Assembly (NCBI GenBank): GCA_030650395.1
Contig: JAUSDY010000060.1
Location: forward strand, 1 to 64,000
Direction of reading: 5' to 3'
DNA from: Acidobacteriota bacterium
GTDB taxonomy: Bacteria > Acidobacteriota > Vicinamibacteria > Vicinamibacterales > UBA2999
Length of the DNA stretch: 64,000 nucleotides
Under the pieces are notes generated by a model. That model was given only the letters and a program-made list of their open reading frames with translations. It had not been told where the DNA came from and did not search any database. Within the stretch, counting starts at the first letter, position 1. The number at the start of each line of letters is the position of its first letter. A program made the position numbers and the translations under genes. Positions 50,051 to 57,795 of this stretch are shown here, piece after piece.

Positions 50051-50647
50051 ATGAATGCCGACGCCGTCTTCCGGCCTTACGTGATCGCGATTTTCGTGGT
50101 CATGATAATGATCACGCTGCCGTTCCGGATCAAGTCGCAGTCGACAGGCGAGAAGCTCGATCGCATGCAGGAGGGCCTGTTCATCCTGGTGGCCCTGCGG
50201 CTCGCCGGCGCCGCGCTGTGGATCGGCGCGATTGCCTTCATGATCAATCCGGCGTCGATGGCGTGGGCGTCGATGCCTCTTCCCGATCGGATCCGCTGGG
50301 TCGGCGTGGCGCTGGGCGTCGTGACGCCGTTGCTGCTGGCGTGGACGCTCAACACGCTCGGCCCGAACCTCACCGACACGGTCGTCACTCGCCAGGCGCA
50401 CACGCTGGTCACCCGCGGCCCCTATCGCTGGGTCCGGCACCCGTTCTACGACTGCATGGCGCTGTTCGTGTTGTCGCTCGGCCTGGTCGCCGCCAACTGG
50501 TTCGTGCTTGCCGCCGGCGTGGTGGTCTTCACGCTGCTCGCGGTCCGGACGCGAATCGAGGAAGAGAAACTGCTGGCGCGGTTCGGCGATCCGTATCGCG
50601 CCTACCTCAAGCGCACCGGACGATTCCTGCCGAGAGTTGGACGCTAA
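50051..50647 (+). CDS. Membrane methyltransferase-like protein (isoprenylcysteine O-methyltransferase family)
   Basis: 198 residues with five to six hydrophobic spans. The C-terminal pattern is that of ICMT/PEMT-like integral membrane methyltransferases: LVTRGPYRWVRHPFYDCMALFVLSLGL, then TRIEEEKLLARFGDPYRAYLKRTGRFLP, where RHPxY and EE bind S-adenosylmethionine in the family. Substrate unknown; such proteins are often mis-named as steroid or phospholipid methyltransferases. It overlaps the end of the MFS gene by 4 nt (convergent). Confidence 0.85.
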   Translation: MNADAVFRPYVIAIFVVMIMITLPFRIKSQSTGEKLDRMQEGLFILVALRLAGAALWIGAIAFMINPASMAWASMPLPDRIRWVGVALGVVTPLLLAWTLNTLGPNLTDTVVTRQAHTLVTRGPYRWVRHPFYDCMALFVLSLGLVAANWFVLAAGVVVFTLLAVRTRIEEEKLLARFGDPYRAYLKRTGRFLPRVGR

Positions 50648-51957
50648 CTTCTGCCTTCTGCCTTCTGCCTTGTGCCTTCCAATGCGGCGTCGGCTTTCGC
50701 GTAGCGGCGCCTCATCGGCCTGAGGATGAGGATCGCGGCCAGCGCCGAGCTCATGTCCAGGGCCGCCATCGTGTAGAGCACGCTGGTCCACGACCCGGTC
50801 GCCTCCATGAGCAGGTTCCCGAACGGCACCAGCAACGCGGCGACTCCCTTGGCACAGTAGAGCAACCCGTAGATCTTGCCGATGTGCTTGGTGCCGAAGG
50901 TGTCGCCGGCGGTGGCGCTGAAGAGACTGTAGACTTCGCCCCAGGCGAAGAACACGAGGCCCGAGAGCACGATGAAGGCATACGGGTTGGAGCCGTACCA
51001 GCCGAGCGCCAGAATGCCCACGGCCTCGAGCGAAAACGCAATGAACATCACCAGCTCGCGGCCGATGTGGTCCGAGAGCCACCCGAACATCGGCCGGGAG
51101 AGGCCGTTGACCATGGTGTTCATCATCAGCGCGAACGGCAGCGCCGCCATGGTGAAGAAGTAGAAGTCGATCCGGATGTCCCGGACACCGAGGTCCTGCG
51201 CGATCACACTGAGCTGGGCCACGGCCATCAGGCCGCCGGTGACCGTGCCGGTGAACATCGCCAGCATCACCCAGAACACTGGTGTCTGCAGCGCCTCGCC
51301 GAGGGTGTAGTCGCGGCGGGACTGCGCGAGGTTCGCCGAATACGTGATGACGCCCGGCCGCGGCGCGCGCAGGAACCAGGCGAAAAAGAAAATCACGGCG
51401 CCCTGAATCAGACCAAAGGTAAAGAAGGCGGCCTGGTATCCAGAGGTCGCGATCATGTTCGCGATCGGGATGATCGTGAGGATGGTGCCGGAACCGTAAC
51501 CGGCCGCGGTCAACCCGACCGCGAGGCCACGCTTGTCCGGGAACCACTTCAACGCGTTGTTGATGCAGGTCGCATAGACCGCGCCCACGCCGAGGCCGCC
51601 GATCACCGACCCGAAGTAGAAGCCGGGCAGGGATGTGGCGTACGAGTTGATGACCCAGGCCAATCCCGTCAGCACACCGCCGAGGAGGACCAGGAGGCGG
51701 GGTCCGTGGCGGTCGATGAAGTGGCCGACGAACGGTGTGCTCCACGTCTGCACGACCACAAAGATACTGAAGGCCGTCTGAATGGCGGCGCGCTCCCATC
51801 CGTGCGCTTTCTGAATCTCGGGAACGAACTGCGTCCAGGAGTACTGGATGTTCGAGGCGGCCACCATGCAGGCGACCCCGAACACGAGTTGCCTCCAGCG
51901 GGAGGCCTCGGCTTGGTCGGATCCGGCAGACGTGCTCGCGTTGGACGACATGCGCAA
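50644..51957 (-). CDS. oxlT: MFS transporter of the oxalate/formate antiporter (OFA) family
   Basis: 437 residues with 12 spans. OFA-type features: SNIQYSWTQFVPEIQKAHGWERAAIQTAFSIF at the first two spans, GHFIDRHGPR (MFS loop motif), KWFPDKRGLAVGLTAAGYGSG and FGWLSDHIGRE in the second half. OxlT of Oxalobacter exchanges oxalate for formate; the neighbouring divergent formyl-CoA cluster makes this exchange likely, but the cargo is inferred. The last residues (EGTRQKAEGRS) are coded by the GCAGAAG heptamer array at 50648-50680. Only about 25 nt separate its start from that of the lyase gene. Confidence 0.85.
   Translation of the reverse strand: MRMSSNASTSAGSDQAEASRWRQLVFGVACMVAASNIQYSWTQFVPEIQKAHGWERAAIQTAFSIFVVVQTWSTPFVGHFIDRHGPRLLVLLGGVLTGLAWVINSYATSLPGFYFGSVIGGLGVGAVYATCINNALKWFPDKRGLAVGLTAAGYGSGTILTIIPIANMIATSGYQAAFFTFGLIQGAVIFFFAWFLRAPRPGVITYSANLAQSRRDYTLGEALQTPVFWVMLAMFTGTVTGGLMAVAQLSVIAQDLGVRDIRIDFYFFTMAALPFALMMNTMVNGLSRPMFGWLSDHIGRELVMFIAFSLEAVGILALGWYGSNPYAFIVLSGLVFFAWGEVYSLFSATAGDTFGTKHIGKIYGLLYCAKGVAALLVPFGNLLMEATGSWTSVLYTMAALDMSSALAAILILRPMRRRYAKADAALEGTRQKAEGRS
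50648..50680. repeat. GCAGAAG heptamer array at the end of oxlT
   Basis: CTTCTGC, CTTCTGC, CTTCTGC, CTTGTGC, CTTCC units; they encode the last residues and lie just before the stop of oxlT on the minus strand. Confidence 0.8.
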
Positions 51958-51982: not shown

Positions 51983-53749
51983 ATGACGACCTCCACTTCT
52001 GACCTCGCCAAGAACGTGGCCAAGACCGCCACGACGGCGGACGACACGCTCAAGGAGAAGAGCCGGGACGCCAGCGTGATCTCCGGCGGCCATCTCGTCG
52101 CCAAGGCGCTCAAGGCCGAAGGCGTGGACACCATCTTCACGCTGTGCGGCGGCCACATCATCGACATCTATGACGGCTGCATCGACGAAGGCATCCGCAT
52201 TGTCGACGTGCGCCACGAACAAACCGCGGCGCATGCCGCCGACGGCTACGCGCGCCAGACCGGCAAGCTCGGCTGCGTCGTCACGACGGCCGGCCCCGGC
52301 TGCACCAATGCCGTGACCGGCATTGCCACCGCGTTCCGCTCAGAAAGCCCGGTGCTGCACATCGGCGGCCAGAGCGCGCTCGGGCAGTGGAAGATGGGCG
52401 GCCTGCAGGACTTGCCGCACGTCGACATGATGAAGCCGATCACCAAGTTCGCCTCGACGGTGATGTCGACCGAACGCATCGCCGACATGGTCGCGATGGC
52501 GGTGCGCGAATGCTTCAACGGCGCCTACGGCCCCGCCTATCTCGAAATTCCGCGCGACGTGCTCGACCGCGAGATCGACGTCACCCGCGCCGTGCTGCCG
52601 AAGCCCGGTCACTACCGCGCGTCGACGAAGTCGATTGGCGATCCGGCCGACATCGAGAAGCTCGCCGACATCCTGGTGAATGCGGAACGGCCGGCGATCC
52701 TCTTCGGCCAGCAGGTCTGGGCCTGCCGCGGCCACAACGAGGCGATTGCGCTGCTGCGCGGCCTCGACATTCCCGGCTACTTCAACGGCGCCGGACGCGG
52801 CTTCCTGCCGCCCGGCGACCCGCACCATTTCGATCGCACGCGCACGCTGGCGTTCGGTAAGGCGGACGTCGTCGTGATCGTCGGCACGCCGTTCGATTTC
52901 CGGATGGGCTACGGCAAGCGCATCAACGTGCCGACGCTGGTGCAGATCGACCTCGGCTACAACATCGTCGGCAAGAATCGCGACGTCGATCTGGGCATCG
53001 CCGGCGATCCAGGGGCGGTGTGCCGCGCGGTGCTGCAGGCGGCGGGCGGACGGCTGAAGAACGACAAGCGTCAGGCGCGCAAGGCATGGATGAAGCTGCT
53101 GTCTGATGCCGAGGACGCCGCGCTCGAGAAGCTGATGCCGACCTTCACGTCGGACCAGTCACCCATTCATCCCTATCGGGTGGCGTACGAAATCAACGAG
53201 TTCCTGACCGACGACACGATCTACATCGGCGATGGCGGCGATGTGGTGACGATCTCGGCGCAGGCCGTGCGGCCGCGCGCCCCGGGCAACTGGATGGACC
53301 CCGGCGCCCTCGGTTCTCTCGGCGTCGGCACCGGCTTCGCCATGGCCGCGAAGCTCGCGCATCCGAAGAAGGAAGTGCTCTGCTATTACGGCGACGGCGC
53401 CTTCGGCATGACCGCCTTCGACATGGAAACCGCCGACCGTTTCGGCGCGCCCTACATCGCGGTGATCGGCAACAACTCGGCGATGAATCAGATCCGCTAC
53501 GGCCAGATGGCCAAGTACGGCCCCGAGCGCGGCAACGTCGGCAACAAGCTTGGTGATATGAAGTTCTCGGTCTTCCCCCAGATGTGGGGCGGCTGGGGTG
53601 TCGAGGTGCATGAGGCCTCGAAGATTGCGCCCGCGCTTAGGCAGGCGCGCGAGATGGTGGCGAAGACCGGCAAGTCGGCCGTGGTGAACATCTGGGTCGA
53701 TCCCAACGAGTACGCCCCGGGCACCAAGAACCAGACGATGTACAAGTAG
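51983..53749 (+). CDS. ThDP-dependent lyase, probable oxalyl-CoA decarboxylase or 2-hydroxyacyl-CoA lyase
   Basis: 588 residues from ATG 51983 (leaderless-type start). The first 30 residues are a charged extension. ThDP-enzyme features: [23 protein letters not shown], the catalytic Glu79 in [31 protein letters not shown], a central nucleotide-binding-like domain, and the ThDP/Mg motif GDGAF (470-474) with NN (497-498). The sequence resembles the acetolactate synthase/2-hydroxyacyl-CoA lyase branch more than E. coli-type Oxc as I recall it. Context decides the reading: it is the first gene of an operon with Frc, a formyltransferase and formate-THF ligase, and divergent from OxlT, so a reaction releasing formyl-CoA is likely. 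True acetolactate synthase is an alternative; no small subunit is nearby. Confidence 0.8.
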
Positions 53750-53767: not shown

Positions 53768-55144
53768 ATGGCATCCCGGAAGAAAGCACCGAAGGCAAAA
53801 GGCAGAAGGCAGAAGGCAGAAGGCAGAAGGCAGAAGGCAAAAGGCAGAAGGCAGAAGGCGAAACCGGGCTGGGGTAAATTCGGAAAAGCGCTCGACGGCG
53901 TTCGCATTCTCGATTTCACGCATGTGCAATCGGGGCCGACCTGCACCCAGCTCCTGGGCTTCATGGGCGCGGACTGCATCAAGGTCGAGCGTCCGGGCAC
54001 GGGCGACATCACCCGCGGGCAACTGCGAGACGTGAAGGGCGCCGATTCGCTCTACTTCACGATGCTTAACGGCAACAAGCGCTCGATCACGATCGATTCC
54101 AAGCACCCCAAGGGCAAGGAGATCATCGAGCGGCTGGTGAAAGCCTGCGACGTGCTGGTCGAGAACTTCGCGCCCGGCACGCTCGACCGCATGGGTTTCA
54201 CCTGGGAACACGTCCACAAGCTCAACCCGCGCATGATCATGGCATCGGTGAAGGGCTTCGGTCCGGGCCCGTACGAAGAGTGCAAGGTCTACGAGAACGT
54301 CGCGCAATGCGCCGGCGGCGCGGCGTCAACGACCGGGTTTCGCGAGGGCCCGCCGCTCGTCACCGGCGCACAGATCGGCGATTCCGGCACCGGCCTGCAT
54401 CTCGCGCTCGGGATCGTCGCGGCGCTCCTGCAGCGCAACCGGACGGGGCGCGGGCAGCGCGTGCTCTGCGCCATGCAGGACGGCGTGCTCAACCTCGCGC
54501 GCGTGAAGCTGCGCGACCAGCAGCGACTGAAGCATGGGCCGCTCGAAGAATTCAGCCAGTTTGGTGAAGGCATTCCGTTCGGCATCGCCGTGCCACGCGC
54601 GGGCAACGATTCCGGCGGCGGCCAGCCCGGCTGGATTCTGAAGTGCAAGGGCTGGGAGGCGGATCCCGACGCTTACATCTACTTCATCACCCAGGCGCCG
54701 GTGTGGGAGCCGATCTGCGATCTGATCGGCAAGCCGGAATGGAAGACCGATCCGGATTACGCGAAGCCGCCGGCCCGCTTGCCGCGGCTCAAGCACATCT
54801 TCGCGACCATCGAAGCCTGGACGATGACCAAGACGAAGTTCGAAGTCATGGACATCTGCAACCAGCACGACATTCCGGTCGGACCAATCCTGTCGATGAA
54901 AGAGATCGCCGAGGAGCAATCCCTGCGCGACACCGGCACAGTGGTGGAAGTGGACCATCCCATTCGCGGGAAATACCTGACGGTCGGCAATCCGATTAAG
55001 ATGTCGGATTCGCCGTGCGAGGTGAAGCGCTCGCCGCTTCTGGGCGAGCACACCGAAGAAATCCTGACCAAAGTGCTCGGCTACAAGGCGAAAGAGGTGG
55101 CCGCCATCAAGGCCTCCGGCGCGATCACACCAGCGGAAAAGTAA
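53768..55144 (+). CDS. frc: Formyl-CoA:oxalate CoA-transferase
   Basis: 458 residues. From residue 43 on the match to Frc/YfdW is close by eye: [57 protein letters not shown], the catalytic Asp205 in [27 protein letters not shown] and [15 protein letters not shown]. Frc moves CoA from formyl-CoA to oxalate, yielding oxalyl-CoA and formate. The first 40 residues are unusual: after MASRKKAP they consist of the basic seven-residue repeat GRRQKAE/K, coded by the GCAGAAG heptamer array (53791-53861). No start codon lies between array and core, so the repeat must be translated. It lies 18 nt after the lyase gene. Confidence 0.93.
53791..53861. repeat. GCAGAAG heptamer array inside frc
   Basis: About ten units (GGCAGAA, GGCAAAA, GGCGAAA); period 7 nt, hence a seven-residue repeat in the protein. 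In frame at the N-terminus of Frc. Confidence 0.9.
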
Positions 55145-55165: not shown

Positions 55166-56095
55166 ATGCGTATCGTCGTTCACGGCCAGCAGGCGTTCGG
55201 CAAGGCGGTGTTGGATGCTCTGCTGAAACGCGGCGACGAGGTCGTCGCCGTGTATGCGGCGCCCGAGAAGCCGGGACAGAAGCCCGACCCGTTGAAAGAG
55301 GCCGCCGTGGCCGCGGGCCTGCCGGTCTACCAGCCCGCGTCGTACCGCAAGCCGGAAGTCTGGGATGAGTTCCGCGCGCTGAAGCCCGATCTACAGGTGA
55401 TGGCGTTTGTGACGCTGTTGGTGCCGGAAGATTTTCTCAACATCCCGACGCACGGCTCGATTCAGTATCACCCTTCCCTGCTGCCGGCCCATCGCGGCGC
55501 CTCGTCGATCAATTGGCCGATCATTCTCGGGGAGAAAGAAACGGGCCTGTCGATTTTCTGGCCCGACAACGGGCTCGACACCGGCCCCGTGCTGCTGCAG
55601 AAGAAGACGCCGATTTCCGACACCGACACGCTCGGGACCGTGTATTTCGATCGCCTGTTCCCGATGGGCGTCGAGGCGATGCTCGAATCCGTCGATCTGG
55701 TGAAGGCCGGGAAGGCGCCACGGATCACGCAGGACGAGAGCCTCTCAACGTACGAAGGCAAGTGCACCGCCGAAACGGCGCGGATCGACTGGGGCAAGTC
55801 GTGGCGCCAGATCGACCCGCTGATTCGTGGCTGCAGTCCGGCGCCCGGCGCCTGGACGACGCTCGGTGGCGCGACGCTGCAGATCTTCGAGGCAAAGCCG
55901 TTCCCGGCGAAAGACCCCAAGGGCATCGCCGGCAAGCTCGGCGAGATCGTCGAGGTGAGCGACGCCGGCTTTACCGTCGTGTGTGCCGACGGCCGCATCC
56001 AGGTGTTGCGGGTCAAGCCTGCCGACGGCGGCAAGATCACCGCGGGAGAATTCGTCACATCTGCTAACGTCGGCGTCGGCACGCGACTGGTGTGA
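55166..56095 (+). CDS. Stand-alone formyltransferase-fold protein, like the hydrolase domain of 10-formyl-THF dehydrogenase
   Basis: 309 residues from ATG 55166. The fold is that of methionyl-tRNA formyltransferase: [20 protein letters not shown], then [25 protein letters not shown] and the catalytic pair His102 and Asp138 (NGLDTGP). The details resemble the N-terminal hydrolase domain of ALDH1L1 rather than Fmt: HPSLLPxHRGAS(S/A)INW and [15 protein letters not shown]...IRG...PGAWT; the His-Asp spacing of 36 equals that of ALDH1L1 His106-Asp142. A C-terminal OB-like domain is kept. It lies 21 nt after frc and 2 nt before fhs. Known relatives act on 10-formyl-THF; here it may hydrolyse it or exchange formyl between THF and CoA (inference). 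Confidence 0.88.
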
Positions 56096-56097
56096 TC

Positions 56098-57795
56098 ATG
56101 CCCGCTTCACAGCATCAGAATCCCAAGAGCGACATCGAGATTTCCCAGGCCGCGGCCATGACGCCAATCATGGAGATCGCGAGCACGCGGCTCGGCATCT
56201 CGGCACAGAACCTCGACCCCTATGGCCACTACAAGGCCAAGGTGTCGATGAGCTACATCAAGTCGCTGAAGGACCGGCCGAACGGCAAGCTGATCCTGGT
56301 CTCGGCGATCACGCCGACGCCCGCCGGCGAGGGCAAGACCACGACGACGGTGGGATTGACGGACGCGCTCAATCAGATCGGCAAGAAGGCGATGCTGTGC
56401 CTGCGCGAACCCTCGCTGGGCCCTTCGTTTGGCATGAAGGGCGGCGCGGCCGGTGGCGGGTATGCCCAAGTGGTGCCGATGGAAGACATCAACCTCCACT
56501 TCACCGGCGACTTCCACGCCATCACGTCGGCGAACAACCTCCTGGCGGCACTCCTCGACAACCACATCTACTGGGGCAATGCGCTCGCGATCGATCCACG
56601 CCGCGTCACCTGGCGTCGCGTGCTCGATATGAACGACCGCGCGCTGCGCGAGATCGTCAGCTCGCTCGGCGGCAGCGCCAACGGCTTCCCGCGTGAAGAC
56701 GGCTTCGACATCACCGTGGCGTCGGAGGTGATGGCGATCTTCTGCCTTGCCTCAGACCTCGACGATCTGCGGCGACGCCTCGCCAAGATCGTCGTGGCCT
56801 ACACGCGCGACAAGAAGCCCATACGGGCCAGTGACCTCAAGGCACAAGGCGCGATGACCGCCATCCTCAAGGACGCGCTGTCGCCCAACCTGGTGCAGAC
56901 GCTGGAAGGCACGCCCGCCTTCATTCACGGCGGGCCGTTCGCCAATATCGCGCACGGCTGCAATTCGGTGCTGGCGACGACGACGGCATTGAAGCTCGCG
57001 GATTACGTGGTGACGGAAGCGGGCTTCGGCGCCGACCTTGGCGGCGAAAAGTTCCTCGACATCAAGTGCCGCAAGGCCGGGCTCGAGCCGGCCTGCGTCG
57101 TGCTGGTGGCCACGATCCGCGCGCTCAAGATGCACGGCGGCGTGAAGAAGGACGACCTCAAGAAGGAAGACCTCCGCGCGCTCGAGCTCGGCATGAGCAA
57201 CCTGCAGTGCCATGTCGAGAACGTGCGCAAGTTCGGGCTCGAGCCGGTCGTCTCGATCAACCGCTTCAGCGCCGACTCCCCCGCTGAACTCGAGCTGGTC
57301 AAGGCCGCGTGTGCGCGGCTCGGCGTCGAGTGCCACATGGCCGACCACTGGGCGATGGGCGGCGCCGGCGCGACCGACCTGGCGCACGCGGTGGTCAAGG
57401 TCTGCGACAGCGGCAAGAGCAAGCTGAAGTTCCTCTACCCCGACGAGATGCCGCTGTTCGAGAAAATCCGCACCATCGCACGCGAGATTTACCGCGCGAA
57501 GGACGTGACCGCCGACAAGGCGGTGAAGGATCAGCTCGCCGCGTTCGAAGCCATGGGCTACGGCACGGCGCCAATTTGTGTCGCCAAGACGCAGTACAGC
57601 TTCTCCACCAATCCTGAGGCCAAGGGCGCGCCGGTCGATCACACGATCAACGTGCGCGAAGTCCGGCTCTCGGCGGGCGCGGAGTTCGTGGTCGCGATCT
57701 GCGGCGAGATCATGACGATGCCGGGCCTGCCGAGGGTGCCGGCCGCCGACGCGATCGACGTCGGCCCAGACGGGCGTATCGTCGGCTTGTTCTGA
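56098..57795 (+). CDS. fhs: Formate-tetrahydrofolate ligase
   Basis: 565 residues from ATG 56098; a GTG at 56092 overlapping the previous stop is an alternative. Signatures: [37 protein letters not shown] (P-loop, Lys80), [61 protein letters not shown], and [20 protein letters not shown] at the end. The length fits the family (about 555-560). It makes 10-formyl-THF from formate, THF and ATP. Placed last in the oxalate/formyl-CoA operon, it can take formate released by Frc or by hydrolysis into the folate pool. A CTTTAG palindrome follows its stop. Confidence 0.97.

Follow-up and report, generated by a model that had tools for sequence, protein, structure and literature searches.

A putative stand-alone formyl-CoA:tetrahydrofolate formyltransferase in bacterial oxalate operons

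The window, i.e., the whole stretch of 64,000 nucleotides of acidobacterial DNA analyzed here, carries four genes on the forward strand, in the order TPP enzyme, frc, fmtL, and fhs, separated by short gaps. The TPP enzyme (51983–53749) lies in the slot of oxc. It is followed by frc (53768–55144), encoding a formyl-CoA:oxalate CoA-transferase (TIGR03253, 709.8 bits for a cut-off of 504.2), and, 21 bases further, by the open reading frame 55166–56095, the product of which is named FmtL here, a stand-alone protein of 309 amino acids with a formyltransferase fold. The last gene, fhs (56098–57795), encodes a formate-tetrahydrofolate ligase (NF010030, 929 for a cut-off of 652); it starts with the ATG at 56098, or with a GTG at 56092 that overlaps fmtL. 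On the reverse strand, oxlT (50644–51957), encoding an oxalate/formate antiporter of the MFS type (TIGR04259, 583.7 bits for a cut-off of 335), is divergent from this operon. A previous, sequence-only reading of this DNA recognized a real gene between frc and fhs, which the domains and the family scores of the neighbors bear out. It also spoke of a formyl-CoA operon; the formyl-CoA genes are indeed present, but ‘oxalate operon’ is the more exact name, because of the divergent OxlT-type antiporter gene.

The N-terminus of frc is extended (53795–53865) by a low-complexity repeat with a GGCAGAA-type unit, and the true start may, therefore, be near 53885, about where the family match begins. Similar repeats occur on the other strand at about 50650. 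By NCBIfam cut-offs, the TPP enzyme is not a canonical oxalyl-CoA decarboxylase (TIGR03254, 208.5 bits for a cut-off of 739.4).

Formyl_trans_N (PF00551, 1.4e-33) and Formyl_trans_C (PF02911, 1e-20) are the sole domains found in FmtL. Within its 309 amino acids, the domain search detected neither the carrier and aldehyde dehydrogenase domains of ALDH1L1 (FDH), nor a C-terminal enoyl-CoA hydratase-like domain of the HypX type. In sequence searches against solved structures, the best match is the hydrolase domain of ALDH1L1 (2bw0, 1.1e-60, 208 bits; 1s3i, 6.3e-60), followed by Fmt (5uai, 2.2e-47), then ArnA, with HypX as a distant match (6j1h, 4.5e-10). The fmt model TIGR00460 gives the highest NCBIfam score, which at 173.3 bits is below the curated cut-off of 201.5, as are those of close FmtL proteins from other genomes (157.7–178.3 bits). 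FmtL also remains below the cut-offs of the PurU (18.8 bits for 285.95) and PurN (51.3 for 150.1) models. The window genome (5.41 Mb, 98% complete) contains four PF00551 loci, one of which resembles PurN, and another (G000:C10:15107-16012) is a canonical Fmt with a TIGR00460 score of 296.8 bits. A canonical Fmt above the cut-off is found in 16 of the 17 genomes tested, the window genome among them. The earlier suggestion that the protein is ALDH1L1-like rather than Fmt-like is, thus, supported by the structure matches and the family scores, and the case in which it would simply be the Fmt of a genome that has no better one does not apply, since a canonical Fmt is encoded elsewhere. Judged by its sequence, FmtL is not a methionyl-tRNA formyltransferase and is nearest to the hydrolase domain of ALDH1L1.

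The active site agrees with this relationship in part. In the alignment, His102 and Asp138 of FmtL correspond to His106 and Asp142 in FDH; His102, Ser104, and Asp138 are invariant in the residue table of 83 FmtL sequences (83/83), and Tyr196 is a further residue of the site. FmtL, thus, has the His, Ser, and Asp set of the ALDH1L1 hydrolase domain. The Asn-His-Asp active site of Fmt is not found in FmtL, where Gln100 replaces the Asn of the amine type, and neither is Ile104 of ALDH1L1. At this triad position, Gln or Cys is present in 110 of 110 FmtL proteins (94 Gln and 16 Cys), namely 82 Gln and one Cys in the 83 sequences mentioned above, and 12 Gln and 15 Cys in 27 more, which a length and cluster filter kept from 38 genes (11 being removed). 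Amine-formylating enzymes have Asn before the His (18/18 Fmt, one ArnA, and one PurN), while the relatives with a known or proposed thiol acceptor have Ile (2/2 ALDH1L1 and the HypX of Aquifex) or Val (the HypX of C. necator). The Ile/Asn difference between ALDH1L1 and amine-formylating enzymes is described in PMC4388273, which quotes less than 10% residual hydrolase activity for I104N and proposes a thiol attack on 10-formyl-THF for the ALDH1L1 hydrolase domain. For HypX, PMC6802093 argues that the formyl group is passed to CoA, because CoA shares the phosphopantetheine of ALDH1L1. FmtL, therefore, resembles the two relatives for which a thiol acceptor is assumed in having no triad Asn. The link between the missing Asn and a thiol acceptor is a correlation; Gln is a conservative replacement, and could mimic Asn.

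In a family tree built from 49 of 111 sequences, without that of the La6 plasmid (see below), FmtL forms a clade with a support of 99/94. The branch uniting FmtL, ALDH1L1, HypX, and unlinked homologues against Fmt and ArnA has values of 92/87 and is not starred, with no resolved inner order and with long branches for ArnA and, above all, HypX. Outside the window genus, the nearest relatives of FmtL are alphaproteobacterial, both in this tree and among the matches listed (84% identity), which suggests a horizontal transfer of the operon. Of the nine genomes listed for the genus to which the window belongs, three carry the gene.

Operon conservation was assessed in two sets of loci. The first comprises the best 80 of 513 relatives, retrieved by a genome scan with operon-linked members and, thus, leaning toward the oxalate clade (70–88% identity; records mostly named Alphaproteobacteria or Proteobacteria, and one Acidobacteria). 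Here, frc immediately precedes fmtL, in the same orientation, in 77 of the 80 loci, one more locus beginning at a contig end, and fhs immediately follows it in 71. The second set, of 38 loci with 45–55% identity, comes from a sample of 219 genomes from the order of Pseudolabrys sp. Root1462 (G523), a sample free of this lean; it shows frc directly upstream in 33 and fhs directly downstream in 25. Altogether, frc directly precedes fmtL in 110 of 118 loci (80 of them being the best 80 of 513 relatives), counts that take in three partial loci (L092, at a contig end; L110, with 437 bases upstream; and L168, on a 3.8 kb contig). The search for conserved adjacency with frc that the sequence-only reading had suggested, thus, came out in its favor. 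The same order is found on an alphaproteobacterial plasmid (La6; 47% identity), annotated as oxc-frc-fmt_2-fhs_2. In G422 (53%), which belongs to the window's phylum but to a different family, the operon runs oxc-frc-fmtL and fhs is encoded at another site. With the neighbor families annotated in part, the recognized genes that most often accompany fmtL are frc, fhs, Oxc, and those related to the La6 plasmid's GntR regulator and TctA transporter. Some operons lie beside serine-cycle-like or panE-like genes (the La6 plasmid; mtkAB-like in L185 and L203; panE-like in L194 and L200).

The oxc slot is occupied by two types of enzymes. In 38 loci, it holds 20 E. coli-like Oxc (55–61% identity; the one tested passes the Oxc cut-off), 11 enzymes of the window type (68–77%), and in seven neither within the fetched stretch. 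The window type is also present in L038, L061, L093, L111, and L115 (83–96%), among the best 80 of 513 relatives, and in L172, L175, L182, and L183. It is nearest to PRK05858 and to 2-hydroxyacyl-CoA lyase models, below their cut-offs, and the window-type query shares only 22–26% identity with E. coli-like Oxc; the two types are clearly different. The window-type enzyme might represent a convergently evolved second oxalyl-CoA decarboxylase.

Co-occurrence was examined in the 219-genome sample, in which a threshold of E <= 1e-60 assigns FmtL to 46 genomes. Frc is present in all 46, vs. 20 of the 173 others, and fmtL is found within 3 kb of frc in 40 of them; in the other six it is not near frc, contig breaks being possible. 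Of the 46 FmtL genomes, 44 encode Fhs; among the 20 genomes that have Frc but no FmtL, 11 do (Fisher 1.7e-4, a value that ignores kinship). The two FmtL genomes in which Fhs is absent are G541 and G689, where assembly gaps are possible. In six genomes whose oxalate-linked fmtL has no fhs beside it (G422, G516, G519, G520, G521, and G522), fhs is located elsewhere in the genome.

The FmtL-free genomes revealed a different gene at the same place. A protein of 709 amino acids recurs in 11 of their 20 frc stretches, vs. none of 120 FmtL stretches, one stretch per genome being compared, with second frc copies mostly outside the comparison. Its domains (ATP-grasp_5, CoA_binding, and Succ_CoA_lig) are those of an ADP-forming acyl-CoA ligase. 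It falls below every NCBIfam cut-off; examples such as L206:11349-13478 (+) and L226 are annotated, where annotated, only as acetate--CoA ligase family protein. Close orthologues (E <= 1e-200, identity of at least 71%) occur in 16 of the 219 genomes, all 16 with Frc and every one within 6.3 kb of frc. When linkage to frc is limited to 3 kb for FmtL and to 12 kb for the ligase, the 66 Frc genomes divide into 40 FmtL-linked, 16 ligase-linked, none with both, and 10 with neither, two of the latter (G555 and G737) carrying FmtL on another contig. Both genes are present in G525, G672, G689, and G720, with the ligase near frc and FmtL half a megabase off or on another contig. One genome departs from this pattern, that of Hansschlegelia (G519): fmtL adjoins frc, and the ligase gene lies at a distance of about 8 kb.

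The ligase reaches beyond the sampled order. In four Acidobacteriota genomes of another family, which have no Fhs (G118, G122, G123, and G124), the ligase match starts 34–43 bases after that of frc, in the same orientation (4/4; 73% identity). In a plasmid collection, all 16 records with the ligase (hits H80–H95) also carry frc, with gaps of 14–263 bases in 12; from their genus names, we take these records to be from Alphaproteobacteria, Betaproteobacteria, and Actinomycetes. The window genome has no ligase orthologue, the best match being partial, with 39% identity. A tree of Frc was used solely to show that switches are few: the FmtL and ligase labels fall into few clades (5 and 4 changes), L194 and L203 being marked as none while having FmtL by tblastn, and the L111 genome also having a ligase outside the stretch. 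Independent switches between FmtL and ligase are, therefore, few, and the association P-values overstate the evidence. FmtL and the ligase are near-exclusive in frc operons and are exchanged in the same slot. From its domains and position, the frc-linked enzyme is a candidate formate- or oxalate-CoA ligase.

Relatives of FmtL also occur outside oxalate operons. A 45% homologue outside any oxalate operon is present in four genomes that belong to the window's order but to a different family; none of the four has an Fhs match. A 43–44% homologue (L029, L030, L031, and L032) has as a neighbor, at a distance of one to a few kb, a gene encoding a protein of 1568–1571 amino acids, which presumably resembles pyruvate:ferredoxin oxidoreductase; Fhs is absent in the three such genomes tested (G118, G122, and G123). 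Other relatives lie directly beside an aldehyde dehydrogenase gene (L176:6339-8876, L177:7559-10069, and L028:6856-9330), a possible split counterpart of ALDH1L1. By sequence comparison, the closest relative of the L176 aldehyde dehydrogenase is not the C-terminal domain of ALDH1L1. One genome, G023, has FmtL and no Frc above the cut-off; taken together with the six of 46 genomes in which FmtL is away from frc, this indicates that some relatives do something else. An open frame of 1044 amino acids in G023 was considered as an FmtL fusion and rejected, as the initial portion looks like a shadow frame of the other strand, and the FmtL portion begins with a Met of its own. Among viral contigs, 111 pattern matches included no relative.

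What such an enzyme could contribute to oxalate catabolism was analyzed by steady-state bookkeeping, i.e., linear programming over a reaction list compiled for this analysis. Frc and Oxc together conserve acyl-CoA, one formyl-CoA being spent per oxalate activated and one regained. On oxalate, with Frc as the sole activator, the transfer of formyl from formyl-CoA to THF has zero steady flux, because the Frc/Oxc cycle needs every formyl-CoA for activating the next oxalate; a second oxalate activator makes it feasible. Formyl-CoA hydrolysis, or oxalyl-CoA reduction to glyoxylate, is unsustainable without fresh formyl-CoA, a supply that is restored by Fhs and FmtL running to CoA, or by a formate ligase. 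When oxalyl-CoA is derived from glyoxylate, no steady state exists without a formyl-CoA outlet, which FmtL running in reverse supplies.

These results can be compared with published proposals. PMC3720670 states that the Oxc/Frc cycle needs priming, proposes YfdE as the primer, and gives formyl-CoA a half-life of 1.9 h in quenched reaction mixtures. In the 219 genomes of the sampled order, no YfdE scores above the NCBIfam cut-off; nine weaker matches fall below it, four of them in FmtL genomes. A route from glyoxylate via oxalyl-CoA and formyl-CoA to formate, with Frc, is proposed in PMC7486775. As given there, it does not balance in the linear programming, since Frc cannot dispose of net formyl-CoA; spontaneous hydrolysis, a thioesterase, a ligase, or FmtL, therefore, seems needed.

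Taken together, the observed homology, residues, operon, co-occurrence, and near-exclusion with the ligase lead us to infer the acceptor, the activity, and the direction of FmtL. The protein would be a formyl-CoA:tetrahydrofolate formyltransferase that exchanges formyl between the CoA thiol and N10 of 10-formyl-THF. It would use the same His/Asp chemistry as the hydrolase domain of ALDH1L1, except that free CoA would take the part played there by carrier-bound phosphopantetheine. During growth on oxalate, it would work mainly from 10-formyl-THF to CoA: Fhs would convert formate and ATP to 10-formyl-THF, from which FmtL would produce formyl-CoA. This new formyl-CoA would start the Frc/Oxc cycle and refill it as formyl-CoA is lost to hydrolysis and oxalyl-CoA to reduction. 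Fhs and FmtL would, thus, be the two-enzyme equivalent of an ADP-forming formate-CoA ligase. Both modules are, in principle, reversible, and a reversible exchanger could serve both directions. We give somewhat better than even chances to a bacterial stand-alone formyl-CoA:THF formyltransferase coupling the folate and CoA one-carbon pools, with an active site akin to that which eukaryotes incorporated by fusion into ALDH1L1, acting with Fhs as a split formyl-CoA synthetase that is swapped in its slot with a single ADP-forming formate/oxalate CoA ligase. That this formyltransferase runs mainly toward formyl-CoA on oxalate, with Fhs and FmtL replacing the ligase as the source, is held tentatively, at a shade short of even chances.

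Several other activities have to be weighed against this one. The same enzyme could mainly form 10-formyl-THF and CoA from formyl-CoA and THF, assimilating one-carbon units without the ATP of Fhs, or providing an outlet (even an ATP-forming one, via reversed Fhs) when oxalyl-CoA comes from glyoxylate; we consider this unlikely, while granting it appreciable weight. The bookkeeping cuts both ways, as glyoxylate oxidation needs the outlet that FmtL gives and a second oxalate activator would permit this direction on oxalate, whereas the flux is zero if Frc acts alone, and the window genome lacks the ligase orthologue. The serine-cycle-like or panE-like genes that adjoin some operons count in favor of this reading; the nearly constant presence of Fhs argues against it, and the neighboring oxalate/formate antiporter gene suggests that the substrate of the window operon is oxalate. 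The direct exchange of formyl between CoA and THF put forward by the sequence-only reading, thus, remains plausible, with its linkage to frc conserved, although the direction it favored, toward THF, carries no flux if Frc is the sole activator. Its accompanying idea that FmtL saves the ATP of Fhs finds no support, given the presence of Fhs in nearly all FmtL genomes of the sample and the exchange of FmtL with a ligase of the ATP-using type.

A hydrolase releasing formate and THF from 10-formyl-THF (or acting on formyl-CoA), and balancing folate pools like the isolated ALDH1L1 domain or PurU, seems quite improbable. Such an activity has a precedent, as the isolated FDH hydrolase domain hydrolyzes 10-formyl-THF when a thiol is present (PMC4388273), and it could suit the relatives outside oxalate operons. 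Next to Fhs, nevertheless, it would create a futile ATP cycle, it would leave the tie to frc and the exchange with a CoA ligase unexplained, and the PurU score is far below its cut-off. The breadth of the fold family also allows for another acceptor (a small molecule, a protein, or a carrier protein), with FmtL merely traveling with the oxalate genes; the chance of this is slim, given the prevalence of frc, fhs, Oxc, and the GntR and TctA relatives as recognized neighbors, a weak argument with neighbors annotated in part. Finally, a second methionyl-tRNA formyltransferase is very improbable: TIGR00460 is the top NCBIfam match and both Fmt domains are present, but the score is below the cut-off, the triad Asn is missing, and nearly all of the tested genomes already have a canonical Fmt.

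If the formyl-CoA:THF formyltransferase reading holds true, it would assign a role to a gene labeled as methionyl-tRNA formyltransferase in one annotated record (fmt_2 of the La6 plasmid), and would explain how oxalate eaters without a YfdE-type primer refill a cycle unable to restart itself. It would also offer a simple way of making formyl-CoA, a sought-after substrate for synthetic one-carbon pathways, from formate at the expense of ATP, and a free-standing bacterial counterpart of the first step of ALDH1L1. The choice between thiol and amine acceptors in the formyltransferase family would, moreover, become testable at one residue. The portions of the open-licence literature consulted yielded no account of the FmtL gene, of folate-CoA formyl exchange outside HypX, or of a stand-alone exchanger tied to Frc and swapped for a CoA ligase.

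The fold and the type of chemistry are known, and a precedent for the half-reaction has been proposed in HypX. With the hydrolase domain of ALDH1L1 (2bw0, 1s3i, and 4qpd), FmtL shares the His, Ser, and Asp, the equivalent of Tyr200, an RG-x-S-x-IN-W motif, and the lack of the triad Asn, but it is stand-alone, belongs to bacterial oxalate operons, and carries Gln or Cys where the triad position of ALDH1L1 has Ile. The N-terminal domain of HypX/HoxX (6j0p and others) likewise lacks the triad Asn (Val or Ile) and has an RGPSALDW-like motif, and the reaction of 10-formyl-THF and CoA to formyl-CoA has been proposed for it. Its similarity to FmtL is, however, weak (4.5e-10); HypX has a second, enoyl-CoA hydratase-like domain, places Asp80 in the role of the Ser that FmtL retains, binds CoA in a cavity to which the two domains contribute jointly, and is believed to produce CO. 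Fmt has the same two Pfam domains and a similar length, whereas FmtL is below the TIGR00460 cut-off, is devoid of the triad Asn, and coexists with a true Fmt. YfdE is comparable in its role as proposed primer of the Oxc/Frc cycle (PMC3720670); unlike FmtL, it is a class III CoA-transferase, and no genome among the 219 sampled from the order has a YfdE above the cut-off. The frc-linked ADP-forming ligase occupies the same place behind frc and, if its substrate is formate, would catalyze the same net reaction as Fhs and FmtL, but as a single enzyme built from other domains (ATP-grasp_5, CoA_binding, and Succ_CoA_lig).
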